Shown piece by piece: positions 3,751 through 52,270 of a stretch of DNA of 64,000 bases (positions are counted from its first letter, which is position 1; every line of letters starts with the position of its first letter). The stretch is from the NCBI RefSeq assembly GCF_000010985.1, contig NC_013939.1:2013501-2077500 (forward strand). Direction: 5' to 3'. The notes beneath the pieces were generated by a model. That model was not told the DNA's origin, searched no databases, and worked only from the letters and a program-made list of their open reading frames with translations. This stretch comes from Deferribacter desulfuricans SSM1. Its GTDB lineage: Bacteria > Chrysiogenota > Deferribacteres > Deferribacterales > Deferribacteraceae. A program made the translations under genes and the position numbers.

Positions 3751-4626
3751 ATGATAAATCCTATTTCTATTTTTCACTTATTTGTAAGTTTCACATTATT
3801 TACATTTAATATTTATAACCCGTATTTTGGGCTTTTTTTAGGCCTTATATCACCACTTTTTTTAATTTTTTATTTTGATATATCCAAAAGCAACTTTAAG
3901 ATTGAGCTAATTGTAGCTTTATTAATTTACGGTTATTTATTTAAAATAATCGCTTTATATTACATTTTATTTGTTTTACTCCCAGTAATATTTATTGTTA
4001 AAGGAAAAGAAAAAGCTGAATTCACTGCAGGGTTACCATCTTTAATTGTTACAATCATAATTATTTTGTTTTTACCAAATATAAGAGATATGTTTATCTC
4101 AACTATGATAAGTAATATCAATTCCTATTTAGAAATACTAAAAAGCAGTGCGCCGGTAGAGAAGCTTTTTTATATTGAAAAAATAAGTAAAAATGTAAAT
4201 CAAATAGCTAAAATATTTGTTTATCTTATGCCCTCATTGAGTTATGGCTACATCGTTTTTATAACTTATATAAACAAACGTTTTTATTTGAGATTGAAAA
4301 AGCAAACAGTAAAGCCTTTTACTGTACCTTTCAAGTTTATTCCAATACTTGTAATAGGTGGGTTTCTTATTTTATCAAAATCGTTTTACACTAAAATGAT
4401 ATCATATAACACGTTGATCATCTTTTTCGTACTTTTCTTTTTACAAGGGATTGAAGTTTTGGAATACTGGTTGAAAAAAATGAAAATACCGTTAATTTTA
4501 AAATATTTAGTTTACTTTTTTGTCATATTAGAACCACCATTAACCGTAATTGTGAGTATTTTCGGTCTTTTTGACGTTTGGATAGATTTTAGAAAATTAA
4601 ATAAAGTGGGAGGGGAAAATGGATGA
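3751..4626 (+). CDS. DUF2232 (YybS-like) polytopic membrane protein
   Basis: 291 residues with about eight hydrophobic segments along the whole length. The sequence resembles DUF2232/YybS membrane proteins, which are often found next to rpsR or rplI; their function is not established. The ATG at 3751 has only a weak purine run upstream (GAAAG), so translation may depend on coupling or another start. The reading frame overlaps the following DUF1844 gene by eight bases. Apart from family resemblance and location, I see no catalytic motif. Confidence 0.7.
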   Translation: MINPISIFHLFVSFTLFTFNIYNPYFGLFLGLISPLFLIFYFDISKSNFKIELIVALLIYGYLFKIIALYYILFVLLPVIFIVKGKEKAEFTAGLPSLIVTIIIILFLPNIRDMFISTMISNINSYLEILKSSAPVEKLFYIEKISKNVNQIAKIFVYLMPSLSYGYIVFITYINKRFYLRLKKQTVKPFTVPFKFIPILVIGGFLILSKSFYTKMISYNTLIIFFVLFFLQGIEVLEYWLKKMKIPLILKYLVYFFVILEPPLTVIVSIFGLFDVWIDFRKLNKVGGENG

Positions 4627-4894
4627 AAAAAGCTATTTTGAAACACTATTTTTCTCTCTCGTGACCACTTTTGAAACAAACGCACTGATTGCAATGGGAA
4701 AAATTAGTAATCCTGTAACAGGTAAACTGGAAAAGGATTTAGATGCGGCAAAAATGAATATAGACATTTTAAGGATGATTAAAGATCGAACAAAAAATAA
4801 TCTTTCTGAAAAAGAGGAAAAACATTTAACAGCAGCAATCACAAATTTAGAACTAAATTATGTTGAAGAGTTAAAACTGAATGGAAAAAGCTAA
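4619..4894 (+). CDS. DUF1844 family protein
   Basis: 91 residues, soluble and helical. The pattern FETLFFSLVTTFETNALIAMG, then NPVTGKLEKDLDAAKMNIDI and a C-terminal NLELNYVEEL, matches the small DUF1844 family, whose function is unknown. A GGAGGGGAAA run inside the previous gene serves as ribosome site. It overlaps the upstream DUF2232 gene by eight bases and the downstream transporter by 14, so the three are probably translationally linked. Confidence 0.75.
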   Translation: MDEKSYFETLFFSLVTTFETNALIAMGKISNPVTGKLEKDLDAAKMNIDILRMIKDRTKNNLSEKEEKHLTAAITNLELNYVEELKLNGKS

Positions 4895-5795
4895 CGCACC
4901 GAAAGTTGCAATAATAGTCGCTTTTTTTTTAGCATGCACTAAAGTTGCTTTTGGTTTTCTTGTTAATTCAATGGCAATTGTTTCTTCTGCTGCAGATTCC
5001 ATATTAGACGTAATATCTTCATCCATTAACTATATTGCGATAAAAAAAGCTGAAGAACCTCCTGATGAAAAGCATCCATATGGACATGCAAAATTTGAAT
5101 CATTGGCCACATATATTCAATCATTAATTATCCTTATATCAGGCGGTTTCATCCTTTATAAAAGTATAATAAAAATTATACATAAACAAGCAATAACAGA
5201 CTTAAATACCGGTATCTACATTATGTTACTCTCCCTTATCACCACTTTTTTCTTAGTTTCATATTTAACACGTGTAGCCAAAAAAACAAAATCTTCAATA
5301 ATTGAAGCTGATGCACTTCATTACAAAGTTGATATATTAAGTAATGCAGGGATTTTAGTGGCACTAATTATAATCAAGTTTACTAATTTTCAAATTATAG
5401 ACCCTATCCTTTCAATGCTTGTTGCTTTCTATATAATATATTCTGCTATCAAGTTAAATATTAAAGTCAGTATGGATCTTTTGGATGCAGAAATCCCGCC
5501 TGAGATTAAAGAGGATATTTTAAACATATTAAAAGAGTTTGATGAATATCATCTTGATACGCATAAAATTAGAACACGTAAAGCAGGTAATAAAAAGTTT
5601 TTAGATATGCATATTACATTATGTAGAAATCTAAAATTAGAAGATGCTCACAAAATAACTCAACTAATAGAAAACAGACTCAAAGAAAATATTGAAGATT
5701 TAGATGTAACAATCCATATGGATCCATGCGATGTAAAAAATTGCCCAGGTTTTGACGCTTGCAATAATCACAAAATACGTTTAGATAAAATATAA
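4881..5795 (+). CDS. Cation diffusion facilitator family transporter
   Basis: 304 residues, a CDF-type exchanger that exports divalent metal ions (Zn, Fe, Mn or Co) from the cytoplasm against protons. Six membrane segments fill about residues 8-205. Likely site A residues are Asp39 and Asp43 in ADSILD and the HxxxD pair in ALHYKVDIL on helix 5. The HPYGH motif (65-69) follows helix 2. The cytoplasmic C-domain carries a His-rich region. The last ~25 residues contain three cysteines (DPCDVKNCPGFDAC), an unusual tail that could bind metal. Substrate cannot be fixed by sequence alone. Confidence 0.88.
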   Translation: MEKANAPKVAIIVAFFLACTKVAFGFLVNSMAIVSSAADSILDVISSSINYIAIKKAEEPPDEKHPYGHAKFESLATYIQSLIILISGGFILYKSIIKIIHKQAITDLNTGIYIMLLSLITTFFLVSYLTRVAKKTKSSIIEADALHYKVDILSNAGILVALIIIKFTNFQIIDPILSMLVAFYIIYSAIKLNIKVSMDLLDAEIPPEIKEDILNILKEFDEYHLDTHKIRTRKAGNKKFLDMHITLCRNLKLEDAHKITQLIENRLKENIEDLDVTIHMDPCDVKNCPGFDACNNHKIRLDKI

Positions 5796-5819
5796 ATAAA
5801 ACAAACAGTGGAGGATTGG

Positions 5820-7049
5820 ATGAGAGAGTTTATGGAAAATGTAATAGCCGAAAGATTAGGCGGCAAAATGTTTGGAAAAGATACCAAAATTTACAAATTC
5901 GAAAAGATAAAAAGAGCAAAAAGAGCTGCAATGGAGGCTAACCCAGGAAAGGAGTTAATTGACCTTGGCGTTGGTGAACCAGACGATATGGCTGATATGA
6001 GTATTGTTAAAGTTTTACAAGAAGAAGCGACAAAAAAAGAGAATAGATTTTATGCTGATAACGGTATTCAAGAGTTTAAAGATGCAGCTGCAGAGTATAT
6101 GAAAAAAAGATTTGGAGTAGATATTGATCCTGTAAAAGAGGTAAATCACGCCATTGGTTCTAAACCTGCTCTTGCTATGATACCATTTTGCCTTATAAAT
6201 CCTGGCGATATTGCTCTTATGACTGTACCAGGCTATCCAGTAACTGGAACAATCACAAAATATTTGGGTGGAGATGTTTATAATCTACCATTAACAAAGG
6301 AAAACAGCTTCTTACCAGATCTAGATAGTATCCCTGAAGACATCAGGAAAAGGGCTAAAATCCTTTATTTAAATTACCCAAATAACCCCACTGGTGTTTT
6401 AGCACCAAAAGAGTTTTTTGAAAAAGTTGTTAAATTTGCAAAAGAAAATAATATTGCAGTAATACATGATGCTGCATACATAGAGCTCACTTATGGAGAA
6501 AGACAGCCATCATTTTTAGAAGTAGAAGGTGCTAAAGAGGTAGGTGTAGAGATTCATTCGCTTTCAAAATCTTATAATATGACCGGTTGGAGAATGGCTT
6601 TTGTATGTGGTAACGAATTGCTTGTACAGGCTTTTGCAACTGTCAAAGATAACAACGATTCTGGACAGTTTATACCAATTCAAAAAGCTGCAGCATATGC
6701 ATTAAGACACCCAGAATTAATAGACAATGTAAGAGAAAAGTATCAAAGAAGACTAAATGCACTTGCAAATGTTTTGAAAGATTTAGGTTTTTATGTAAAC
6801 GAACCAAAAGGGACATTTTACTTATATTTTGAAATTCCAAAAGGGACAAAAAGTGGTAGGACATTTAACAGTGCTGAGGAGTTTTGCGATTATTTAATAA
6901 GGGAAAAGTTGATATCATCAGTTCCTTGGGATGATGCTGGCCATTATTTAAGATTTACCGTTACTTTTGAAGCTAAGGATTTAGATGATGAAAAAAGAAT
7001 TATTGACGAAGTAGCTAAAAGATTATCTGAAGAAAAATATATTTTTTAA
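5820..7049 (+). CDS. dapL: LL-diaminopimelate aminotransferase
   Basis: PLP-dependent aminotransferase of fold type I that converts tetrahydrodipicolinate directly to LL-diaminopimelate, for lysine and peptidoglycan. The N-terminus RLGGKMFGKDTKIYKFEKIK and the early IDLGVGEPDDMAD motif are typical of DapL. The Schiff-base lysine is Lys250 in SLSKSYNMTGWRMAF. The ATG at 5820 (409 aa) is preferred because GGAGG lies five bases upstream; an in-frame GTG at 5808 is possible. It follows the CDF gene by 24 bases and may be cotranscribed. A related aminotransferase specificity cannot be fully excluded. Confidence 0.88.
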   Translation: MREFMENVIAERLGGKMFGKDTKIYKFEKIKRAKRAAMEANPGKELIDLGVGEPDDMADMSIVKVLQEEATKKENRFYADNGIQEFKDAAAEYMKKRFGVDIDPVKEVNHAIGSKPALAMIPFCLINPGDIALMTVPGYPVTGTITKYLGGDVYNLPLTKENSFLPDLDSIPEDIRKRAKILYLNYPNNPTGVLAPKEFFEKVVKFAKENNIAVIHDAAYIELTYGERQPSFLEVEGAKEVGVEIHSLSKSYNMTGWRMAFVCGNELLVQAFATVKDNNDSGQFIPIQKAAAYALRHPELIDNVREKYQRRLNALANVLKDLGFYVNEPKGTFYLYFEIPKGTKSGRTFNSAEEFCDYLIREKLISSVPWDDAGHYLRFTVTFEAKDLDDEKRIIDEVAKRLSEEKYIF

Positions 7050-7100
7050 CAAATTGAGGTCTTTGCAAGTGGTTTAACCAGTTCAAATTTGTATAAAAAT

Positions 7101-7174
7101 GAGATTGCTTCGTCGATTTTGCTCCTCGCAATGACGTGAAAACATCAGTCATTGCGAGCGTAGCGAAGCAATCT
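7101..7174. repeat. Intergenic hairpin repeat, facing pair
   Basis: One repeat arm (GAGATTGCTTCG to CTCGCAATGAC) is followed after a 17-base spacer by its inverted counterpart (GTCATTGCGAG to GAAGCAATCT). The rest of the 215-base gap between dapL and fmt shows no gene. A degraded TGAGGTCTTTGCA near 7055 resembles the terminal repeats of the larger elements. Confidence 0.85.
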
Positions 7175-20972: not shown

Positions 20973-21386
20973 ATGTTTTTATTGTTTGATTACAACCAAA
21001 AAACACTTGCAGTCAATTTATACGATGTTAAAAATATCGTTTTGACTGAAGATATCTACCCTCTACCTTTTATTGGCAACATATTATTGGGTTTAGTAAA
21101 TATTAAAGGGGAGTTATTGCCCGTTTTTAATTTAAACACTATTTTCAAAGATAATTTTATTTCAGCATCAAAAAAACTCATTTCATTTCAAAATGGATAT
21201 AACTTTCTAATACCAAGCGATGGGAAAATATTCATTGAAAATGAGCCAGGTGAAAAGATTGAAACAAATTTAGAAAATGAGTTTATAAAAGCAAACTATA
21301 AATGCAACCGAAAAATAATTAATCTTTTAAATTTGAACAAAATCAAAGACCAAATTAACAATACACTGCTCAAGGAGGCAAAATGA
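20973..21386 (+). CDS. cheW: CheW-like adaptor protein
   Basis: 137 residues, one CheW domain. It links chemoreceptors to the CheA kinase at the membrane. The core FDYNQKTLAVNLYDVKNIV, LPFIGNILLGLVNIKGELLPVFNL matches the beta-barrel core with its typical GLVNIKGELLPV stretch. No ribosome site precedes the ATG, and TATAAT ends only four bases before it, so the message may be leaderless. First gene of a tightly packed chemotaxis-like operon; the stop overlaps the receptor start by four bases. Confidence 0.85.
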   Translation: MFLLFDYNQKTLAVNLYDVKNIVLTEDIYPLPFIGNILLGLVNIKGELLPVFNLNTIFKDNFISASKKLISFQNGYNFLIPSDGKIFIENEPGEKIETNLENEFIKANYKCNRKIINLLNLNKIKDQINNTLLKEAK

Positions 21387-23456: not shown

Positions 23457-25364
23457 ATGAGCGCTAATAAAAATTTATTTGATATTTTTAATGAAGAATT
23501 AAATGAACATTTAAATAATATACGTGCATCTTTAAACACTTTTTTTGAAACAGAAGATAACACTGTTTTTAGAAAAATAATAAAAGATTTTCATACGTTA
23601 AAAGGCTCGTCAGCCATTTTAGGTTTAAAAGAACTCACTGATATCTTTCATGAATTAGAAAATTATTTCAACAAAATCAAAGATAATCTTTCAGAATCTG
23701 ATAAAATAAAAGTTGTACAACTAATAGAACTCATAGAAAAAATACCTTCACATCTGGAAAACCAAGAAGAAATTAGTAACCAAATAAAAGATATATTATC
23801 CGACAAAAAAAACACAAATTTAAATCAGCTAAAGCCATCAACAGAAATAAAAACACAAAATAAAATAGACCCAGTAAAGATAAATTCATTAAAAAAAGAT
23901 TATTTTGAAATATCTAATGAAATCCATCAACTATTAGAAGGTTTAAATATAGAAAAATATATCAAAAACAGAATCTATAAAAAATTAGAGTCATTAGGCT
24001 ATAAACTAAATAGATTAAACTTATCTTCTTTTTCTATTTTGGATGAAAAGATAAAAAATATTGCTTATTCCACATCATCTCAACTCAATAAAAAAGTGAA
24101 AGTTTTAATTGAAAACTCAGAAATTGAAGCTGATACAGAGATTATAAATATTGTAAATGAAGCTTTAACTCATTTGATTAGAAACGCTATTTATCACGGC
24201 ATAGAAAAACCAGAAGAAAGAAAAAAATTAAAAAAGGATGAAGTAGGGTTAATAACCATACGCTATACGCAATCAAATGACAGAATCCAAATTATAGTAG
24301 AAGATGATGGAAAAGGGATAGATTTAGAAAAGATATTAAAAAAGGCAATTGATGAAAAAATTATAGGTGAAGAAGATTTAAAACACCTAAAGGAAGATGA
24401 TATAATAAACCTGATTTTCTCAGAAAAAATTTCTACCGCTGAAACCGTTGATGAAATCAGCGGTAGAGGTATAGGGATGCAGATCATAAAAGATAAAATA
24501 GAAAGTATTGGTGGTTTACTTGAGATAGAAACCGAAAAAAATAAATTTACCAGATTCTTATTGAATGTGCCTTTTACATTTCAAAGTATTCTCTCAAAAA
24601 TTGTTTCTTCAAATAATTATGATATAGCAATACCCATAACATTTATAGATGTCGTAGAAAAATTTAAAGAAGATAAAGTCATAAAAAAGAGGGACAAATT
24701 TTTATATCAACACAGAAATAAGCTTTTTAAAGTCATAAGCTTGGCAAATTTATTAAACATGGATAGTAAAAAAGAAAAGTTCTTGATATTTTTTAAAAAT
24801 GCAAAATCAGCACTGTTGTCAGAATCTATAAAAGATAACGTGTTGCTGGATATAATCAATATAAAAGGGGTTAACGGACAATATAAATACTTTATAGGAT
24901 TTTCTATTTATAAAAACAAACCCATAGCTATAATAAGACCGTCCGAATTAGATATTGATAAAAATAATAATTTCATAAAATCTGGGTATCAACAACCTAT
25001 AACAAACTCAAATAAAACACTTTTAATAACAGACGATAACAAAATAATCTTAGAAACTTTAACAAATATATTAAAAAACAAATATAATATTATCAAAGCA
25101 AACAATGGTATAGAAGCACTGAATATATTAAAATCAAATAAAGTAGATCTGCTTATCACAGATATCGAAATGCCTGAAATGGATGGATTTACGTTAATTT
25201 CTAAAATTCGCAAAGATAATCAAAAAATTCCGATACTAATATTATCTTCCAGAGGTGAAAAAAGCGATATTCAAAAAGGCTTAGAATTAGGTGCAAACGC
25301 TTACTTTGTAAAAAAAGACTTCAATAAAAATGACCTTATAAAAAAGGTAGAAGAGCTGTTATGA
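23457..25364 (+). CDS. cheA: CheA-type hybrid histidine kinase with C-terminal receiver
   Basis: 635 residues. Order: Hpt domain with phospho-acceptor His46 in DFHTLKGSSAILG; linker and dimer helices (about 140-215) with no recognisable P2 domain; HATPase with N box NEALTHLIRNAIYHGIE, G1 EDDGKGID and G2 GRGIGMQII; CheW-like domain (about 375-500); receiver domain (about 520-635) with phospho-acceptor Asp569 in LLITDIEMPEMDGF. The fused receiver may replace a separate CheY or act as a phosphate sink. It starts two bases after the receptor gene and overlaps cheB. Confidence 0.92.
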   Translation: MSANKNLFDIFNEELNEHLNNIRASLNTFFETEDNTVFRKIIKDFHTLKGSSAILGLKELTDIFHELENYFNKIKDNLSESDKIKVVQLIELIEKIPSHLENQEEISNQIKDILSDKKNTNLNQLKPSTEIKTQNKIDPVKINSLKKDYFEISNEIHQLLEGLNIEKYIKNRIYKKLESLGYKLNRLNLSSFSILDEKIKNIAYSTSSQLNKKVKVLIENSEIEADTEIINIVNEALTHLIRNAIYHGIEKPEERKKLKKDEVGLITIRYTQSNDRIQIIVEDDGKGIDLEKILKKAIDEKIIGEEDLKHLKEDDIINLIFSEKISTAETVDEISGRGIGMQIIKDKIESIGGLLEIETEKNKFTRFLLNVPFTFQSILSKIVSSNNYDIAIPITFIDVVEKFKEDKVIKKRDKFLYQHRNKLFKVISLANLLNMDSKKEKFLIFFKNAKSALLSESIKDNVLLDIINIKGVNGQYKYFIGFSIYKNKPIAIIRPSELDIDKNNNFIKSGYQQPITNSNKTLLITDDNKIILETLTNILKNKYNIIKANNGIEALNILKSNKVDLLITDIEMPEMDGFTLISKIRKDNQKIPILILSSRGEKSDIQKGLELGANAYFVKKDFNKNDLIKKVEELL

Positions 25365-26344
25365 AAAAAAATATTTTAGTAATTGAAGACTCCCCTTATT
25401 TTAGAACGACACTCATTGATATGTTGTCAAAATATGAGGATATAAATATAGTTGGCTATGCAACTGATGGAATAACTGCTGTAAAAATATTTGCAGAATT
25501 AAGACCTGATGTAGTTCTTTTGGATTTAATGCTACCAAAAATGAATGGTGATGCAGTAGCTGAATCAATAATGAGCATAAATCCAACCCCAATAATCATT
25601 ATGACTTCACTCTCAGATTTTGAAATAGAAAAAAGCTTTGTATTAAACGTAGATTATTTTGTTGATATAATAAAAAAACCTTTAGAGATTGATCAAAGAT
25701 TTGTGGAAAAGCTTTATACAAAGATAAAAGATTCTTCCCCTTTCCAAGTCAAAAATATAAAACATGAACGAATTATTACAACTCCAGATGTAAATGTTTA
25801 CAGTAAAGAAGCTGATACAGTATTAGTTATCGGAGGCTCAACAGGTGGTCCTAAAATATTAAAGACAATAATACCAATAATATCCACTATTAAAAGCTTA
25901 CCCATTATCATTGCAAATCATTACGAAGTTGGATTCGAAATTCAGTTAAGAGATTGGATTGCAAGTTTAGCAAAGAAACAAACCGTTTTGATATCAGATA
26001 ATATCCCAGTTGATGATAAAATTTATATAGCTCCTACAGCTTACAATTTTATAATAGAAAATAATCATTTCAAATTAACCCCTATTGATAAAAAACAGAT
26101 ATATTTTCCTCATATAGATAAAGTTTATGAGTCTGTGGCTAAGTTTTATAAAAATAAATGCACTATATTTCAGATAACAGGGATGGGATTTGATGGACTA
26201 AACGGTGTGAAAACAGCAAAAGACCTTGGTGCAAAGATAATTGCGCAAGATCCAGAAACCGCTGTAGCCCAAAGTATGCCTAAATCAGTTTTACCGTATG
26301 CAGATCATATTATAAAGCCGGAAGAATTAATAAAGTATCTATGA
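25361..26344 (+). CDS. cheB: CheB-type receiver-methylesterase
   Basis: 327 residues. N-terminal receiver with Asp55 in VVLLDLMLPKMNGD and the Lys of IIKKPLEI. The C-terminal esterase domain has the catalytic triad Ser160 (VIGGSTGGPKI), His187 (IIANHYEVGFE) and Asp278 (ITGMGFDGLNG). The enzyme removes methyl groups from receptor glutamates and opposes the CheR in the same operon. Around His187 the usual HMP triplet is replaced by HYE, a mild departure. The start overlaps the cheA stop by four bases. Confidence 0.92.
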   Translation: MKKNILVIEDSPYFRTTLIDMLSKYEDINIVGYATDGITAVKIFAELRPDVVLLDLMLPKMNGDAVAESIMSINPTPIIIMTSLSDFEIEKSFVLNVDYFVDIIKKPLEIDQRFVEKLYTKIKDSSPFQVKNIKHERIITTPDVNVYSKEADTVLVIGGSTGGPKILKTIIPIISTIKSLPIIIANHYEVGFEIQLRDWIASLAKKQTVLISDNIPVDDKIYIAPTAYNFIIENNHFKLTPIDKKQIYFPHIDKVYESVAKFYKNKCTIFQITGMGFDGLNGVKTAKDLGAKIIAQDPETAVAQSMPKSVLPYADHIIKPEELIKYL

Positions 26345-27717
26345 AAAAAAACATAATAGTAGCTGTAAACAGTCAGTTAGTTAAAACTGTTATCAACAAT
26401 TATTTCGATAATGACAATATTATAGCTATAAATTCTATAGAAGAGTTACTTCCTTTAGAAAAAGTTGAAAACGCTATATTTATAGCAGAAAACAGCTTTT
26501 TGTCGGAAATAAATCCTGGATTTATCATCACTTTATCTGAATTTAATAAAACCAATAAAAATAGTGTATTACTAATAACTTCTAGCAACAGTTTAAGAGA
26601 TATTTACTCCTTAACAATTCCAAATATCCTAGTATCAACCCCTGATAAAATCATAAATTATCTACCAAGGCTGCTTTATGGTGAAATCGATTTTACTTTT
26701 TGCAAAAGTCACAATTTTCTTAAAAACAAACTTTTTGAGAAAACTATTAAACAAAAATTTTTAGAGGTTTACTCAATAAACATCATAGACAACATATTAG
26801 ATATGAACAACTACTTTTATGAACTTGTAAATATGCTCGAAATAGCTTTTAATATAAAAAAAATCATCATTGAGTTTACCACAGATAACGGCACATTTAT
26901 TTTTACTACAATAAATAAAAATTTTCTTGAACAATTTGTATCCGATATTCAAGGGAAAAAAATCTTTTATACTGAGCAAACTCATAATATAGAGGAAAAT
27001 GAAGCACACTATAAGATCCATATAAGTATAAATGGAATACAAAAAGGATGCATGCATATCATCTACAATGAATATGAAACTGATCAAACCTTCATTGAAT
27101 TGAATACCACACTATTAAATATTTTAAGAAAATTCTATTTTTATCTCAGTACAACCCTTTACAGAGAAACTTTTAAAAACAAATGTATAGATGTAGATAA
27201 AATTAAAATAATAATGGATAATATTTTTAAAGAACCAACTCCAGAACTTATCAAAATTATTAATTACAAAACTAATACCTCATCATTTGCTGTAAATAAT
27301 GATTTATATATAATTTCATCTCATACAAGTTTTTACAACCATTCTCTATTGACATTTTATACCTATCATTTAGCAAATCAAAATATAGATTTTAATGATA
27401 TTGCATTAAAACTAAATGTTTTTATTCATAAAAACTTACTTAAATTCCTCCCAATACCAATTTCACTAATCAAGATAGAAAAAAATACTCTATCTTTTTG
27501 TGCCACAAATGATATGCCTTTAATTGATTATAACAACAAAGATTTAATATTTTGTAAAAACCCATACTTTGGTATGTACAAAAATCTTGACATAGATGTA
27601 AAATTGTTAAATATAGATAAATCTTCTAAATATATACACCTTCCAGATTACATTCTTATTTCTGAGGGGGAGAGAAAAGATTTAATAAGTAGGGTGTTGT
27701 ATGACAATAAATTATAG
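26341..27717 (+). CDS. Degenerate receiver / GAF-like / PP2C-like protein of the chemotaxis operon
   Basis: 458 residues, not recognised as a described family. Residues 1 to about 118 have the length and strand-helix rhythm of a receiver, but the acidic pocket and phospho-acceptor Asp are missing. Residues ~120-270 look GAF-like. Residues ~285-455 follow the SpoIIE/RsbU phosphatase pattern: LNVFIHKNLLKFLPIPISLI, then LSFCATNDMPLIDYNNKDLI, where the family has an AGHPP-like turn, and NPYFGMYKNLDI, where it has PLG. The metal-binding Asp-Gly motifs are replaced (ISSHTSF, LISEGERKD), so catalysis is unlikely. It overlaps cheB by four bases and cheR by 17. I infer a regulatory or scaffold role; the PP2C reading is from pattern only. 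Confidence 0.6.
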   Translation: MKKNIIVAVNSQLVKTVINNYFDNDNIIAINSIEELLPLEKVENAIFIAENSFLSEINPGFIITLSEFNKTNKNSVLLITSSNSLRDIYSLTIPNILVSTPDKIINYLPRLLYGEIDFTFCKSHNFLKNKLFEKTIKQKFLEVYSINIIDNILDMNNYFYELVNMLEIAFNIKKIIIEFTTDNGTFIFTTINKNFLEQFVSDIQGKKIFYTEQTHNIEENEAHYKIHISINGIQKGCMHIIYNEYETDQTFIELNTTLLNILRKFYFYLSTTLYRETFKNKCIDVDKIKIIMDNIFKEPTPELIKIINYKTNTSSFAVNNDLYIISSHTSFYNHSLLTFYTYHLANQNIDFNDIALKLNVFIHKNLLKFLPIPISLIKIEKNTLSFCATNDMPLIDYNNKDLIFCKNPYFGMYKNLDIDVKLLNIDKSSKYIHLPDYILISEGERKDLISRVLYDNKL

Positions 27718-31903: not shown

Positions 31904-32605
31904 TCATTCTGAGAATAATGTATTTATATTACCATTTATGATATCATTACCAATATGTTTTAAATCATTATAAATATCTTCAATATCAACATCTTGTATC
32001 CATTTTAATGATTTTAAATATTCTTTTGGAATAGTTGTTATAATTTCAAATACAGTTTGTGGATCAATACCAGCATCCTTTCTTGATGCATACTTAAAAA
32101 CAATCCTCCAATCAAATAAAAAATTCTTTGCAAGCATCCACAAATCCACAATATCTTTTGGCTCAAACCTATATAAAGCACTCACTTTATTTACAAGAAT
32201 ATTTTTCCATGTATCAACTAAACCATAATTTTCATAAAAAAAAGGTCTATCAATTCTAAAGTTTACATCCGATACAAAATCAATTTTTAGTTCAATTTCA
32301 CTTTTAATCAAATAAATACGAACATAAGTGTCACTTTTTTTAATCCGTTCACTGTCAAAAGTATACTCTAATTCATCAGCACACTTATAGAGTTCTTCCA
32401 AAATTAATGAACAATAAATATCAAAATCTTTCTGCGAATTTACAAAAAAGTCTAAATCATCGGAAAATCTATGATTAAAATATATTCTACTTAATGCTGT
32501 TCCACCTGTTAAATAAAAGGGTGTTTTGAGTTTTTTTAATATATTCAGGATTCCATCTTGAAAAGGGTATAGGTTCTCCAGATAATATTTTACGTAATCG
32601 CTCAT
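31904..32605 (-). CDS. AbiEii/AbiGii-type nucleotidyltransferase
   Basis: 233 residues. The motif TPFYLTGGTALSRIYFNHRFSDDLDFF gives the Gly-Gly-Thr and Asp-x-Asp elements of the AbiEii nucleotidyltransferase family, which includes toxins of type IV toxin-antitoxin and phage-abortive systems; IELKIDFV may give the third acidic residue. AGAGGA before the ATG supports this start. It overlaps the upstream 129-aa gene by 119 bases, so the two are surely linked. The true target is unknown. Confidence 0.8.
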   Translation of the reverse strand: MSDYVKYYLENLYPFQDGILNILKKLKTPFYLTGGTALSRIYFNHRFSDDLDFFVNSQKDFDIYCSLILEELYKCADELEYTFDSERIKKSDTYVRIYLIKSEIELKIDFVSDVNFRIDRPFFYENYGLVDTWKNILVNKVSALYRFEPKDIVDLWMLAKNFLFDWRIVFKYASRKDAGIDPQTVFEIITTIPKEYLKSLKWIQDVDIEDIYNDLKHIGNDIINGNINTLFSE

Positions 32606-32876
32606 ATTTTCCTCTTAATTCTTTATCTCTTAATTGTTTCAAATACTTATCAGATAAAATTTCTTTTAATCCATCCACTCCAAATAAAAAAAGTAAGTCA
32701 TAATATGATAACCTTTCCAGTGCTCTCAAAACCAATTTTTCATAAGTAAAGTGTTGATAACTTATTTTCTTCTTAAAAATAACATCTAAAAGATTTTTAG
32801 GTGAAATATTATAGTCCCATATAATTTTTTTGATTAGTTTTTCGTAGGCTTTTAATGTGTCTTTGTCCATATACAT
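32487..32876 (-). CDS. Partner protein of the AbiEii-like gene (putative antitoxin)
   Basis: 129 residues, helical and rich in Lys and Leu. I do not recognise the family with certainty. The core FTYEKLVLRALERLSYYDLLFLFG, then LKEILSDKYLKQLRDKELRG, resembles small proteins often placed ahead of AbiEii-like nucleotidyltransferases. It has no helix-turn-helix I can name. Position and the 119-base overlap suggest a toxin-antitoxin-like pair; this is inference. The ATG at 32876 has no clear ribosome site. Confidence 0.55.
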   Translation of the reverse strand: MYMDKDTLKAYEKLIKKIIWDYNISPKNLLDVIFKKKISYQHFTYEKLVLRALERLSYYDLLFLFGVDGLKEILSDKYLKQLRDKELRGKYERLRKILSGEPIPFSRWNPEYIKKTQNTLLFNRWNSIK

Positions 32877-34496: not shown

Positions 34497-36824
34497 TTAC
34501 CTACCCAGAAGTTGTAAAGCGAGCTGAGGAAGCTGATTAGCCTGTGCCAGCATAGCAGTAGAAGACTGCTGAAGTATCTGATACCTTGTAAAGTTAGCCA
34601 TCTCCTCAGCAATATCAAGGTCTCTAATCCTGGACTCAGAAGCTGTCAAGTTCTCCCTTGCTGTGTCAAGGTTTGTAATCGCATGCTCAAGCCTGTTAAC
34701 CTGAGCACCAATAGTAGACCTTGCACCAGAGATAAACTCCAATGCCCTGTCAATCTTCGTAATTGCTTTTTGAGCAGATTCTTGGTCAACTACTAAGACA
34801 TTGTCAAGATCTAATGATTTAGTATCAATCTGAGCAACACTTACATTTATGTCTTGCCCTTCATTTGCTCCTATCTGAAGCGCAGTTGAATTATCAACAA
34901 GGTGTAATTCAATAGTTGTTGTACCTGATGCTGTAAATGTAAGATTTCCACTACTATCTCCTGAAACTGAAACTCCCAAATTTTTATCAAAGCTCAATTC
35001 AACACCACTAATTACTCCTCTTAATGTGTAATCATTTACAGTATCACTACCTACGGTAGCTCCATTTTTTGTAACACTTACAGTTAAAGAGGAGTTTTCA
35101 CCTTTTTGAACTGTAGTCAAGGATAAACCATCAATAAGTTTCTGGTCACCGATGAAAGAAATCTTGCTGTCTTCACCTATTAAACCACTTTGGATTTTAA
35201 ATGTACCTGCAGTAGTATCATAATATACTAAGTCATTTTTAATAGAAGAATCTCCCATTTCCAAATCATTTACAAGCGCATCTTCCAATTTAGATTCAAA
35301 ATCTGCTAAAGTATCATCACCTTCAAGATAAATTGTAGTCTGTTTACCATTACCAAATATTGTCAATGATTGAGTATTATCAAAAATGTTTCTACCATCA
35401 TCATTAACAAACCTCTGTACATCTTTTAGTTTAGTTGTAGATGTTGCTACATCCCCTTCTCCAAGAACGTTAAAAATAAGATTTTCACCATTTGTAATAG
35501 ATGAAACAGGATTAAAATTTATTCTAAAACTATTCAAGCTAAAAGTTCCTGTACTTGTATCAAAATTTCCAACATATACATTGGTACTACTCTCTGAAGT
35601 ACTACTTATTGCATTAGCATATGTAACTTCAGGATGATTAGCTGATGTCGTATATTTTACAGTTATATCAGTAGCACTATCTGTTTTATCATAATCGGAT
35701 AGGCTAATTACTGCTTTATCTCCTACACCAATATTATCATTAGTAGTAATTATCCTTAATCCACCAGCTGAGAACAAATTAGTTGAGCCATCAGTTGTTA
35801 ATCCAGAAGAACTATTTAATTCAATAAATTCGGTATCAGGATTAGTATCATTTGAACCATCACCAGAAATGTAATCCAAATCAACATTTACCCAATCACT
35901 AACATATCCTGTTTCCGCATTATAAAACCTAACTCTTGCAGCATTAGCAATCCTTGTCTGTGTAGAACTACTTGTACTAGTGTCATTCTCATTTGCTGAA
36001 GTAGCAGCCAAAAATTCAACTTCCAAATATCCACTAGCACTTACATCATAAGCTGTCCCATTATTTGCTAAACTAACATTTGCCCCACCAGTATAACCTA
36101 AAACAGCAGCGGCATCATCACTTGTAGTACCATCTGTATCAACTTTTGCAAGTGTTACACTAGAACCAGAATCAAACCCTTCTATATTATCTATTGATTT
36201 CACTGCATTTTTCCAACTTGCTCCAGATGAACTATCTACCTCACCATAACTATTTGTTTCTCCAATTGTCATAATATCAGTTTTATAGATATAATTTTTA
36301 CCAGCACTTGATGTTACAGATACAGAATATTCACCTTCAGCTACTTTACCTTTGATAATAGCTTCAAGTTTGTTGCTGCTTGCTGACCAGAGAGCTGATG
36401 CATCACCGTTTAACAATTTTTTGGTGTTAAATTCTGTTGATGCGGATATTCTGTTGATTTCTGATTTTAGCTGGTCAACCTCTTTTTGAAGCTCTGCTCT
36501 GTCATTTGCAGTATAGGTACCGTTTGCAGCCTGTACTGCAAGCTCTCTCATTCTTTGAACAATGCTTTGAATCTCTTGCAAACCACCTTCAGCAGTCTGC
36601 AGCATTGAGATACCATCTTGAGCGTTCATACTTGCTCTTTTAAGACCACTGATTTGGCCTCTCAATTTTTCACTGATTGCAAGACCAGATGCATCATCTG
36701 CCGCATGGTTGATTCTAAGACCACTTGATAATCTCTCAAGTGATTTTGACATTTGACTGTTTGTGATACCTAAGTATCTTTGTGCATTAAGGGAAGAAAT
36801 ATTGTTGTAAATTCTTAGTGCCAT
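34497..36824 (-). CDS. fliC: Flagellin, very large (775 aa)
   Basis: Filament subunit. The N-terminal ~165 residues (D0/D1) include [20 protein letters not shown] and [18 protein letters not shown]. The C-terminal ~90 residues contain RSTIGAQVNRLEHAITNL and SRIRDLDIAEEMANFTRYQI. Between them lie ~510 variable residues rich in Ser, Thr, Asp, Gly and without Cys, about four times the size of the middle of small flagellins. Strong AAGGAGG site. A sigma28-type promoter lies ~300 bases upstream. Paralogue of the flagellin at 39055-41451. Confidence 0.95.
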   Translation of the reverse strand: MALRIYNNISSLNAQRYLGITNSQMSKSLERLSSGLRINHAADDASGLAISEKLRGQISGLKRASMNAQDGISMLQTAEGGLQEIQSIVQRMRELAVQAANGTYTANDRAELQKEVDQLKSEINRISASTEFNTKKLLNGDASALWSASSNKLEAIIKGKVAEGEYSVSVTSSAGKNYIYKTDIMTIGETNSYGEVDSSSGASWKNAVKSIDNIEGFDSGSSVTLAKVDTDGTTSDDAAAVLGYTGGANVSLANNGTAYDVSASGYLEVEFLAATSANENDTSTSSSTQTRIANAARVRFYNAETGYVSDWVNVDLDYISGDGSNDTNPDTEFIELNSSSGLTTDGSTNLFSAGGLRIITTNDNIGVGDKAVISLSDYDKTDSATDITVKYTTSANHPEVTYANAISSTSESSTNVYVGNFDTSTGTFSLNSFRINFNPVSSITNGENLIFNVLGEGDVATSTTKLKDVQRFVNDDGRNIFDNTQSLTIFGNGKQTTIYLEGDDTLADFESKLEDALVNDLEMGDSSIKNDLVYYDTTAGTFKIQSGLIGEDSKISFIGDQKLIDGLSLTTVQKGENSSLTVSVTKNGATVGSDTVNDYTLRGVISGVELSFDKNLGVSVSGDSSGNLTFTASGTTTIELHLVDNSTALQIGANEGQDINVSVAQIDTKSLDLDNVLVVDQESAQKAITKIDRALEFISGARSTIGAQVNRLEHAITNLDTARENLTASESRIRDLDIAEEMANFTRYQILQQSSTAMLAQANQLPQLALQLLGR

Positions 36825-39054: not shown

Positions 39055-41451
39055 TTATCCTTGAAGTAGTTGAAGAGCCATTTGAGGTATTTGATTTGCC
39101 TGAGCAAGCATCGCAATACCTGATTGAGATAGAATTTGATAGCGTGTAAATGTAGCCATCTCCTCTGCCACATCAAGATCTCTAATCCTTGACTCACTTG
39201 CTGTCATATTTTCATGCGCAACATTCAAATTATTTACAGTATGCTCAAGTCTGTTTATTTGAGCACCAATTGTCGCCCTAATTGTCACAACTTGACTCAA
39301 GGCATTATCAATATCAGGAATCGCTCTTTTAGCTAATTCTTGAGAAACTACCCAAATTTTATCAACACCAAGCCCAACAGTATTAAGCTGTGGAATTGAT
39401 ACTGATAAATCCTGCCCTTTATTTGAACCAATCTGCAAATCAGTAGAATTATCTACCACATGTAAATAATAATCCTCATTTGTTAAATTTGGATTTTCCA
39501 CAAATTCCAACTCATTTGATGAATTTAATTGAGAATTTACACTTGTTCTTGAATCTATTACCAACTCAATACCTTGTATTACACCGTCAACCCTATCGTT
39601 ACCAGTTTCGTCACTGCCTATTAAATCGCCTGTAGTGGCATCGTAAACTGTCACTTTTACACTACTACTTTCAGCTTTTTGCACTTCTGCTAATGATAAA
39701 GCATTTATCAACCTTTGATCACCAGAAAATGCAATTTCACCCTGCTCCCCAACCATAGCAGTTTGAATAACAAATGTACCTGCAACAGTTCTAAATTTAC
39801 TATTTGGATCAGCTGTTGTGATATAATCCACTAAATGCTCATTGACAGTCGGATCATCAGATCCCATTCCTAGATTGTTTACTATGGCATCAGTCAATTT
39901 CTTTTCTAAATCTGCTACTGTATCATCTGCTTCTAAATAAATTGTTGTTGATTTACCATTTCCCCAGATTGTAAGTTCTTGCTTATTCTCAAATAGGTTA
40001 TTTCCATCAGCATCTATAAACCTAGCGATATTGCTCAATTTAGTATTTTCATTAGCAACATCTCCAGGATTTAAAGTATAACCTTGAAATGTTGCATCAT
40101 CAGGATCTAAAAATCCATTAGAATCTGATCCAATCTTTAATGTAAAAGAATCTGTCGTTTGTAAATTACCATTTGTATCAAACCCTAGTAAGGCTACTTG
40201 ATGTTCAGAATTAGCTAATCCACTATCCGCTGTAACTTTTAATACTTGATTTGATGGTGTACCACTTGTAACTGGTGCATAAACATCAAAATATCCACCA
40301 GTTGCTGTTGTAGGTATAGAGGCATTATATACTGAAATAAGGACTTTTTCCCCTGCACTAATAGTTAATTCTGTCGATCCATCATCTAATAATATATCAT
40401 TAAATGATATCGCTCCACTTGTAGCTGAACTTACATTACTCATATTTAAAATAACATTACCACCACCATCACCTGTAGTGGTATCTTCTATATTAGCAAT
40501 AATTCCTGTCTGAAATGCAGTACCATCTGAATTATAAATATTAATATATGCATTTCCAAGTGTACTCCTATTTGCATCACCATCATTTGATGTACTATCA
40601 TAAGTTGTCCCATCAAAATCATTATTAAATATAACTTCTATATAATAAGTTCCATTTGTAGAGTTTAAAGCACTACCTATAACATCACCATCAACTGTCG
40701 AATCAAACGTGTTATCCCCTCCATCATATGTAGAAACCTTATAATAACCATCTGACGCAGTTGTTGCACCGTCTACAGTCACTCGATATATATTATCAGA
40801 ATTACTACTAACAAGATCTTTTATCTCTTCTACACCATTACTCGTTGATGGATTATGAGTAATTGTTACTCCATTTTCTGCTTCAGATACTGTCATGATA
40901 TCGGTTTGGAAGACTTGATTTTGGCCAACACTCAGGCTTTCCATTTTTATTTTGTAATTTCCCTCTTGAACATTACCTCTTATTATTGCTGAGATTTTAT
41001 TATCACTTGCTGACCATAGAGCTGTCCCATCACCATTTAATAGCTTTTTAGTGTTAAACTCTGTGGCAGTTGATATTCTATCAATCTCTGCTTTTAGCTG
41101 TTCAATCTCTTTTTGTAGCTCAACTCTGTCATTTGTGGTATAAGTACCATTTGATGCTTGTACAGCAAGCTCACGCATCCTTTGAAGCATTGAAGATACT
41201 TCTTCTAATGCCCCTTCTGCAGTTTGAAGCATTGAAATACCATCTTGTGCATTCATTACCGCTCTTTTGAGACCTGTGATTTGACCACGCAACTTTTCAC
41301 TGATTGCAAGACCTGAAGCATCATCTGCTGCATGGTTGATTCTTAAACCACTTGATAAACGCTCGAGTGATTTGCTAAGTGCGGATTGAGTCCCGCCAAG
41401 GTGTCTTTGAGAATTCAAAGACATGATGTTTTGATAAATTGTTAGTGCCAT
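39055..41451 (-). CDS. fliC: Flagellin, very large (798 aa), second copy
   Basis: Same architecture as the flagellin at 34497-36824: conserved N-terminus ([20 protein letters not shown]), a long variable middle (about residues 165-705) and conserved C-terminus ([20 protein letters not shown]). The two copies are close in the first ~160 and last ~90 residues, share a block around [20 protein letters not shown] to the GDQRLINAL stretch, and diverge widely elsewhere. Many Asp/Gly/Thr stretches and no Cys. AAGGAGGAT precedes the ATG. It has its own sigma28-type promoter close by. Confidence 0.95.
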
Positions 41452-49159: not shown

Positions 49160-52100
49160 ATGAAAAAAATAATATTAGCATGTATACTTTTAATATCATT
49201 ATATGGATTCACTTATGCACAAAATAACAAAATAATTTATGACAGTTCATTAGGAGGGGAAAATTTTTTAGATAATCAATATAATTTTCTTGGCTGTTAT
49301 AAGGATCAAGGGGATCCTTTTGGTACAAAAGGTAGAGATTTAGACGGTTTTATGTATGGCTCCAATCAAATGACACCTCAGATGTGTATCAACTTGTGTG
49401 CTCAAAAAGGGTTTAAATACGCAGGGGTACAATACTCTACTCAATGTTTTTGTGGGAATAGTTACGGGAAATATGGAGTTGCCAACAATTGCAATATGAA
49501 GTGTTCAGGTGACCAAAACCAAATTTGTGGGGGGACATGGGCAAATAGCGTTTACCTTGCATCAAATATAAAGCCACCAAAAACAAACATAAATGGAAAA
49601 ACAAATTTAATAAAAAATGGTAGCTTTGAACTTGGTCCACAACATGTAGGAAGCTGGCTAACTCTATCAAAAGGCTCAAACAAAATTAATAATTGGACAA
49701 TTACCAAAGGATCCATAGATTTGATTGAAAATTACTGGCAAAGCAGTCATGGGAAAAGGTCAATAGATATGTGTGGTTCCACATGTGGAGCTATTAGTCA
49801 AAATATTAATACAGCACCTGGTACTACATACCAACTCACATTTGATTTGGCAGGTAATCCTGATAATCAAGGGATAAAATATCTAAAAGTTATTGCTGGT
49901 TCAGTTTCAAAAACATTCCAATTTAACACAACAGGTAAAAATAAAAGAAATATGGGGTGGATTAAAAAATCTCTTACTTTTACTGCAACATCAAACATAA
50001 CAAATATCTCATTCATCGCTCTTGATAACAACCCATCTGCTTGGGGACCTGCTATAGATAATGTAAAAATCGTAAGAATATCTAATATAAACACATCTAA
50101 CAACATAAATAATCATGCTTTAACAACAATTAATGTAGCTGGTAGCTGGGATACAAATTTTGGTAAAATGAATTTAATACAAAGGGGTAATACAGTAACA
50201 GGCAGTTATACTCATGATAAAGGGCGATTAACTGGAACAATCAATGGAAATGTTTTAACTGGAAAATGGAGCGAATATCCTTCTTATAAGCCACCTCACG
50301 ATGCCGGTGATTTACAGTTTGTTTTTTCAAAAGATGGGACAAAATTTACTGGTAAATGGAGATACGGTTTTGGAGGAAATATCTGGAATGGGGATTGGAA
50401 TGGTACAAAAGTCTCAACTAACTCAGCTAATTCAGAAAAAACAAATTCTGACAATTATCTAAATGATTATTTTAAAAATTCACCTTATGCAGAAGACTGG
50501 TTTAAAAACTGGAATGTTATAAAAACAGGTACATTACCTGATGGAACTGTAGCAAAAATAGCAGGAGTAAATAATAGATTTGGCTGGTATTACCCTGTAA
50601 AAAAAATTGGGGATGCTATGCCACCTGAAGGAGCTCATGGAGCTGCATTATATCTCCACCCAATTTCAACAACTGAACCAACTCATTTAAAAGGTAAATA
50701 CTATGTAAATTCAAACGATAAATCACTAATGTTCAGAGTTGCAGGTAACAAAAATGGTGACTGGGTAATGGAAGTTAGGATAAATGGAGTAAAAGCCTTT
50801 GAAAGAGTTATTGATGGGAAAAAGTGGTATGAACTTACAATACCTCTGCAAAAATATTACGGGCAAACAATCGATGTAGATTTATACATAAAAGCTAATG
50901 GATGGTATTTTGAGTATGCCTTTATAGACGAAATTAAATTTATCAATACTCAATACACAGAAAATGGATTTGAATATAGTACTGACAGGCCTGGCTATGA
51001 TTATAAAAACTTCGATCTTCCACAAAACAATGCTATGTTATGTAAGCAGGCATGCGATAATGACCCAAAATGTAAAGCATGGACTTTTGTTAAGCCCGGT
51101 TATCAAGGGCCAAATCCGCGCTGCTGGCTCAAATATGCAGTGCCAAATCCAGTTTTAAACACTTTTACCATATCAGGTGTTAAAAAAGAAAATCCTCAAA
51201 ATACAAACCATCAACCTTTATCAAAAATCGATTATCACGACGACTTCAATTTTTTAAATAAAGATTTTTGGCTACCTTTAGAGTGGCAAACTCTTAAATA
51301 TGCACCAAATAAAATTTATATAAACAACGGTATTCTTGATTTAAAATGCAACTATACCGACAGAAGTGGATTTTTAGCTTCAAAAGCAATAAAAATAGAT
51401 AAAGGGGACATAATAACTATCAAAAGACGAGTAAAAGTACATTATGCTAACCAATATTTTGAAGGTGGAATATGGTTTTATCAAACAGATAACCCAGACC
51501 TAACTCCTGCTGCAAACCTATCTCAATGGAGCAATAAATTAGGAAGATTTTTATTTCAGGTAACCTACTACAATTATTACTATGAAAAACCGGGAGTAAC
51601 CCAGTATGTGCCCACAAAACATGGATTTGTAATAGCTGGTTATGATTGGCGTAATAAACAAAATTATAAAGTTTTTCAACCAATATGGGATAGATGGTTT
51701 GAAGAAGAAATAGTCTATGATTCAAGTAGTAACATAGCAATATACAAAATAAATGGTCAGACTGCTCAAGTATTTACTGCAGACTTAACATCCCCTTATA
51801 TAAGGTTTATTATGCATTCTTATGGCTGGTATACCGGTCATGATATACAGGTGGATTGGATCGATATCAAAGTTCATAGTAAAAACAATACCAATATTAC
51901 AAATACTGTCAATACCTCAAATAGCTTTAAAATATCTGATTGTGGATTGTATCAATTTAAAGGGGAATATATTCCAAAACTGATGCCAGAAACTCTAAAT
52001 CCCAATATAAAAAAAGTTTACCTAACATGTGCTATAAACAATGTACCTAAAAACACCGAAATTGTAGCTCAATGGTATTATTATCAACCAAATGGGGAAA

Positions 52101-52270
52101 AACTTTTCATTGCCAACTATCCATATAAAATAACAAAGGATAACTACTCAGGATATATAACTTATTATATAGAAATGCCTCCTGAAAAAACTTGGCCACA
52201 AGGAAAATATGAAATAATTTTAACAAATAAGGGGTTGCCTTTAAAGAATATTAATTTTAATATGAAATAA
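49160..52270 (+). CDS. Exported mosaic protein with WSC, choice-of-anchor and PAN-like modules
   Basis: 1036 residues. Signal peptide 1-20 (cut after TYA). Residues ~42-135: WSC domain with paired Cys (FLGCYKDQ, CINLCAQKGFKYAGV, CFCGN, CSGDQNQICGG). ~150-308: choice-of-anchor C/DUF642-like (LIKNGSFELGPQ, RSIDMCGSTCGAISQNI). ~328-420: small beta domain GSWDTNFGKMNLIQRGNTVT. ~440-600: beta domain with repeated Trp. ~610-690: PAN/apple-like (CKQACDNDPKCKAWTFVKPG). ~700-920: concanavalin-like. ~930-1036: C-terminal beta domain. All but the first few are carbohydrate- or protein-binding folds, so a surface or matrix-binding role is likely. No catalytic residues are clear and no anchoring signal is seen. 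The gene stands alone. Confidence 0.8.
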   Translation: MKKIILACILLISLYGFTYAQNNKIIYDSSLGGENFLDNQYNFLGCYKDQGDPFGTKGRDLDGFMYGSNQMTPQMCINLCAQKGFKYAGVQYSTQCFCGNSYGKYGVANNCNMKCSGDQNQICGGTWANSVYLASNIKPPKTNINGKTNLIKNGSFELGPQHVGSWLTLSKGSNKINNWTITKGSIDLIENYWQSSHGKRSIDMCGSTCGAISQNINTAPGTTYQLTFDLAGNPDNQGIKYLKVIAGSVSKTFQFNTTGKNKRNMGWIKKSLTFTATSNITNISFIALDNNPSAWGPAIDNVKIVRISNINTSNNINNHALTTINVAGSWDTNFGKMNLIQRGNTVTGSYTHDKGRLTGTINGNVLTGKWSEYPSYKPPHDAGDLQFVFSKDGTKFTGKWRYGFGGNIWNGDWNGTKVSTNSANSEKTNSDNYLNDYFKNSPYAEDWFKNWNVIKTGTLPDGTVAKIAGVNNRFGWYYPVKKIGDAMPPEGAHGAALYLHPISTTEPTHLKGKYYVNSNDKSLMFRVAGNKNGDWVMEVRINGVKAFERVIDGKKWYELTIPLQKYYGQTIDVDLYIKANGWYFEYAFIDEIKFINTQYTENGFEYSTDRPGYDYKNFDLPQNNAMLCKQACDNDPKCKAWTFVKPGYQGPNPRCWLKYAVPNPVLNTFTISGVKKENPQNTNHQPLSKIDYHDDFNFLNKDFWLPLEWQTLKYAPNKIYINNGILDLKCNYTDRSGFLASKAIKIDKGDIITIKRRVKVHYANQYFEGGIWFYQTDNPDLTPAANLSQWSNKLGRFLFQVTYYNYYYEKPGVTQYVPTKHGFVIAGYDWRNKQNYKVFQPIWDRWFEEEIVYDSSSNIAIYKINGQTAQVFTADLTSPYIRFIMHSYGWYTGHDIQVDWIDIKVHSKNNTNITNTVNTSNSFKISDCGLYQFKGEYIPKLMPETLNPNIKKVYLTCAINNVPKNTEIVAQWYYYQPNGEKLFIANYPYKITKDNYSGYITYYIEMPPEKTWPQGKYEIILTNKGLPLKNINFNMK

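Follow-up and report, generated by a model that had tools for sequence, protein, structure and literature searches.

A conserved receiver- and PP2C-like protein with degenerate active sites in a chemosensory operon of the Deferribacterales

HsbR (PA3346) of the Pseudomonas HptB pathway joins a receiver to a C-terminal RsbU/SpoIIE-type PP2C domain; it is fed by a histidine phosphotransfer protein, and its enzymatic target is a neighbouring anti-anti-sigma protein, with separate docking of HptB on the receiver and of the anti-anti-sigma protein on the PP2C domain (PMC2904497). Wsp systems combine CheW, an MCP, a CheA with its own receiver (CheA-REC), CheB and a CheR with TPR repeats (CheR-TPR) with a dedicated output that varies by lineage, and the receivers of the outputs WspR and WspH undergo phosphorylation and are joined to GGDEF or kinase domains (PMC8552884). 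CheA-REC proteins belong mostly to class F3, F5, ACF or Tfp (PMC10782961). In Aspartate-less receiver (ALR) domains, Glu is the commonest substitute for the missing residue, and constitutive activity is known for some members of the class (PMC4395418).

In the 64,000-nucleotide stretch of Deferribacter desulfuricans SSM1 DNA analysed here (the window), Pfam matches and synteny place CheW, an MCP, CheA-REC, CheB and CheR-TPR in one operon with a sixth protein, referred to below as X (Table 1). The gene content is that of the Wsp systems, and X occupies the place of the Wsp output, WspR or WspH; unlike these, it cannot accept phosphate in the usual way (PMC8552884). The predicted domain order of X is like that of HsbR, from which it differs in that the active sites are lost, a GAF-like domain is present and no STAS gene is its neighbour (PMC2904497). 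The REC–SpoIIE–HATPase proteins of the Deferribacterales (e.g. L074, G017) come from the same order of bacteria and pair a receiver with a PP2C domain, as the receiver-like and PP2C-like profiles suggest for X, with a similar spacing of secondary structure within the PP2C part. Unlike X, they have an intact receiver Asp and intact PP2C DG motifs and carry a fused RsbW-type ATPase, and GAF was undetected in them. REC–PP2C proteins whose motifs are intact occur commonly in the order, and therefore a donor architecture for X exists. Most genomes that lack X encode proteins of REC–SpoIIE–HATPase size, compared with just one of the six that have X, a distribution confounded by family kinship and by the E-value cut.

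Table 1. Window coordinates of the operon genes and of the assigned regions of X
Feature	Coordinates	Strand	Evidence
CheW-like adaptor, 137 aa, operon gene 1	20973..21386	+	Pfam CheW 2e-8; position kept in 6/6 genomes
MCP-type receptor with PAS domain, 690 aa	21383..23455	+	Pfam MCPsignal 4.5e-26, PAS_10 1.2e-6
CheA with C-terminal receiver (Hpt-HATPase-degenerate CheW-REC)	23457..25364	+	Pfam Hpt, HATPase_c, Response_reg
CheB (REC + methylesterase)	25361..26344	+	Pfam; alignment
X (degenerate REC-GAF-PP2C protein, 458 aa)	26341..27717	+	ORF call, homologues, profiles, model
Receiver-like domain, X residues 1-118	26341..26694	+	hhalign vs REC 27.3; beta-alpha order in model
GAF-like domain and flanking helices, X residues ~119-285, long helix 248-281	26695..27195	+	AF2 and Foldseek
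PP2C (SpoIIE)-like domain without active site, X residues ~301-458	27241..27714	+	hhalign 46.9
CheR methyltransferase with C-terminal TPR repeats, 457 aa	27701..29074	+	Pfam CheR 3e-37, TPR

The ORF, on the forward strand, agrees in its coordinates with the original prediction of a 458-residue protein between CheB and CheR. The start ATG shares 4 nt with the CheB stop and the 3′ end shares 17 nt with the CheR start, while stops are numerous on the minus strand opposite. Homologues of 458–463 aa with 23–41% identity occur in five further genomes. Against the congener (41% identity within the genus) dN/dS is 0.25 for X, compared with 0.24 for CheR, the ratio being rough because dS values are near saturation. 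On the strength of the homologues and the dN/dS, X is a real gene; being under purifying selection, it is therefore maintained and not a decaying pseudogene.

A search for homologues and their neighbours, which the original prediction had proposed as a check, found X in six Deferribacterales genomes (its own included) from three families, all with one shared operon in the identical order CheW, MCP, CheA-REC, CheB, X, CheR-TPR. X is present in every one of the six genomes that carry the operon-type CheR-TPR (CheR-TPR matches at E < 1e-200), and the genes flanking the operon differ between families. A search for X outside the Deferribacterales, covering 385 genomes, gave no true match, the one hit being a spurious match within the reading frame of an apparent Mfd-type repair helicase. 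Neither the remaining genomes of the phylum nor > 330 genomes from outside it contain X. A scan of genome contigs returned two Deferribacteraceae loci and no further lineage, viral contigs and plasmids gave no matches, and a search outside the phylum, made via CheR-TPR relatives, found no intact ancestor of X placed between CheB and CheR. The family is narrow in distribution, and X is a conserved, apparently undescribed protein family fixed in a chemosensory operon. At two of the loci (L036 and L039, in genomes G008 and G015) X differs by 2 nucleotides but the operon's 5′ end and CheR diverge by ~8–17%, suggesting recent recombination across part of the operon.

Within the operon, CheA has an Hpt domain and its own receiver (a P2 domain was unmatched in Pfam), and CheB has an intact receiver, the REC Asp and the catalytic residues both being conserved in the alignment; phosphate can therefore flow to both. 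A Pfam scan of the operon genes found neither CheY nor any other intact output receiver. Upstream lies a divergent gene for an AI-2E family transporter and downstream a cupin gene and a DUF72 gene. Promoter matches were at chance level, and a terminator-like site was not found.

Comparison of X or its alignment with Pfam (at E up to 10), NCBIfam and PDB sequences returned noise only. As the library models gave no match, profiles were built for X and compared using hhalign, with decoy profiles and shuffled columns as nulls. The N-terminus (residues 1–118) matched a REC profile from the order with a score of 27.3 (Prob 40%), compared to at most ~14 for seven other profiles and at most 17 for 60 column shuffles. 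The AlphaFold (AF2) model shows beta–alpha order in this region at a pLDDT of only ~40–63. This moderate profile match supports a receiver-like N-terminus.

The middle of X is the most confident part of the model, with pLDDT 70–85 across most of residues ~150–270, and Foldseek matched it to the GAF structures 4g3v, 4g3k and 8jrc. The best Foldseek match for the X model is 6ob8/6oap, a dual-sensor histidine kinase from a series that includes a BeF3-bound form; the structure titles suggest that the construct is a receiver plus GAF. A GAF profile scored 14.3 against the middle part in hhalign, inside the null, and Pfam GAF was unmatched, so that the support for a GAF domain here comes from predicted structure.

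At the C-terminus, a diverse SpoIIE/PP2C profile scored 46.9 (P 2e-6, residues ~334–439), compared to at most 18.4 for non-PP2C decoys and at most 17.1 for shuffled columns, and the similarity to the RsbU/SpoIIE type is significant across ~107 C-terminal columns. Only the diverse profile gave a signal; none was obtained with a narrow one (Neff 2.6). When the C-terminal profile of X was run with hmmsearch against 604 ORFs, PP2C proteins came top after X itself (E ~0.008), a ranking we treat as supporting evidence only because the ORF set is enriched in PP2C genes. The region has a pLDDT of ~30–65 in the full AF2 model, which was built from three sequences only, and of 36 when modelled alone. 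Because these models are of low confidence, it is the sequence profiles by themselves that support a SpoIIE/RsbU-type PP2C-like C-terminus. The receiver and PP2C outline of the original prediction is thus borne out in both halves by profiles; the structure prediction proposed as its check recovered the receiver topology, together with the GAF domain, but left the PP2C part at low confidence.

The phospho-acceptor Asp is lost, as had been predicted: it is replaced by E50 (window 26488–26490), which is invariant in 6/6 members and has an equally invariant Asn directly after it. In the alignment of the six members, the receiver also lacks the acidic pair and the Lys. X therefore resembles the ALR domains in having Glu for the phospho-Asp; unlike that class, it has lost the acidic pair and Lys as well and is coupled to a dead PP2C (PMC4395418).

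The PP2C-like domain, unlike RsbU/SpoIIE-type phosphatases, has lost three of the four metal-ligand Asp sites and the last strand, with one site kept, two replaced and the last absent. The predicted loss of the metal-binding Asp-Gly motifs holds for most of them. Alignment to SpoIIE-type PP2C shows no counterpart of the GD hairpin Asp or of the DxxGHG motif, and the protein stops ~45 residues early, so that it lacks the DDxT strand. The TDG Asp, however, is apparently kept as D436, since the invariant P435-D436 (window 27643–27648) aligns with it and the Gly alone is lost; as D436 is invariant, there is a slight possibility that some metal binding persists. The site losses are common to all six members. 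A non-catalytic regulator with a dead receiver and a dead PP2C, as originally proposed, is well supported by the profiles. Having lost both the phosphate-receiving and the catalytic metal sites, X probably acts by binding partners and not by chemistry.

On balance we favour, with moderate confidence, the view that X descends from a REC–GAF–PP2C regulator of the RsbU/HsbR kind and now serves a CheY-less chemosensory array as an adaptor or output without catalytic activity. The most economical model would be that X retains both docking surfaces of such a regulator and has lost the chemistry. The invariant Glu and the broken pocket may lock the receiver in one state, turning it into a docking surface for CheA, the CheA REC domain or CheB. 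The GAF domain could bind a ligand or drive dimerisation via the long helix, and the PP2C-like domain may bind a partner, possibly a STAS protein encoded in the genome, without dephosphorylating it. Signalling would in that case rely on binding and sequestration, with no phosphate transferred to X. The confidence we attach to this model overlaps with that of the alternatives below, and two of these, the partner-switch scaffold and the array protein, are narrower forms of it.

One alternative, raised in the original prediction, is that X is a partner-switch scaffold or decoy, whose dead PP2C holds a STAS protein encoded elsewhere, phosphorylated or not, and so alters an anti-sigma-like kinase. 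STAS proteins are the targets of the ancestral PP2C type, and the genome of D. desulfuricans encodes seven STAS domains, two RsbW-type ATPases and three intact SpoIIE-type phosphatases. Partner-switch parts also occur near che genes in this organism, as seen in two other clusters. In one (L089; G000:C1:410000-424000, 3828-7161), an intact phosphatase (PAS–PAS–PP2C by inspection), a STAS gene and a STAS–HEAT fusion (472 aa) adjoin CheR; the other, a second chemosensory cluster (L032; G000:C1:673000-688000), is adjoined by an RsbW-type ATPase. The X operon itself, however, is without a STAS or RsbW-type gene in 6/6 genomes, such genes lying elsewhere in the genome, and no STAS was present among the scanned flanking genes of the window. 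A conserved genomic link between X and a particular STAS gene was not found either. The scaffold idea thus gains nothing from the operon, and we consider it rather unlikely.

Several further observations were made at these two clusters. Several other genomes in the order have a similarly placed reading frame after this L089-type phosphatase. The first 115 residues of the L032 RsbW-type ATPase resemble a further degenerate receiver, and the L032 cluster ends with a REC–HisKA protein without an ATPase domain. The C-terminus of a REC protein of the second che cluster (P0003) was considered as a further dead PP2C and dropped once the sequence was inspected.

A more speculative proposal, which we hold to be doubtful, makes X a double pseudo-protein output that CheA would steer by binding or through the array only, and that would influence an anti-sigma-type partner switch through sequestration, giving phosphate-independent control of gene expression. 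About equally doubtful is a role as a structural or adaptation protein in the receptor array, e.g. aiding the methylation of the MCP by CheB or CheR, with no output function. The overlap of the X reading frame with CheB and CheR on either side suggests coupled production of the three, but X is without array-adaptor domains (CheW, CheD, CheC), and position in the operon is by itself undecisive.

Catalysis by X, either at a much altered PP2C-like site around D436 or in a different reaction, appears improbable: the alignment of P435-D436 with the SpoIIE TDG Asp and an invariant YFG.Y at the place of the PP2C PLG are in its favour, but X has lost three of its four metal-ligand Asp sites, one of them, the last, along with the final strand. 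It is similarly improbable that X is an unrelated alpha/beta protein whose resemblances arose by chance, as the noise-only Pfam result and the low-confidence C-terminal model might suggest, since the profile scores lie far above the decoy and shuffled-column controls, the domain order is right and the 604-ORF ranking puts PP2C proteins first.

Pseudo-receivers have been described, and so have pseudophosphatases, the latter mainly in eukaryotes. In line with the original prediction, no described family with the layout of X was found in Pfam, NCBIfam, PDB or the literature searched, nor did that literature yield a bacterial protein that joins a pseudo-receiver to a pseudophosphatase and is fixed in a chemosensory operon. 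Pseudo-receivers and PP2C response regulators are thus known individually; what is new is their combination and its place in a chemosensory operon. Should X prove to be the output, arrays of this kind would be able to signal while leaving the dedicated output unphosphorylated. The source organism is a hydrothermal-vent bacterium, and this thermophilic origin should suit X and its neighbours to structural and binding work.

Other features of the window lie outside the operon. A 1036-aa protein (49160-52270, +) carries WSC, DUF642 and PAN domains, a combination found mostly in eukaryotic or extracellular proteins. An AbiEii-type nucleotidyltransferase gene overlaps a 129-aa gene without a Pfam match (31904-32876, -), possibly a type IV toxin–antitoxin-like pair. 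Finally, two flagellin-like proteins are unusually large, at 775 aa (34497-36824, -) and 798 aa (39055-41451, -), and the latter has Flagellin_N and Flagellin_C at its ends.
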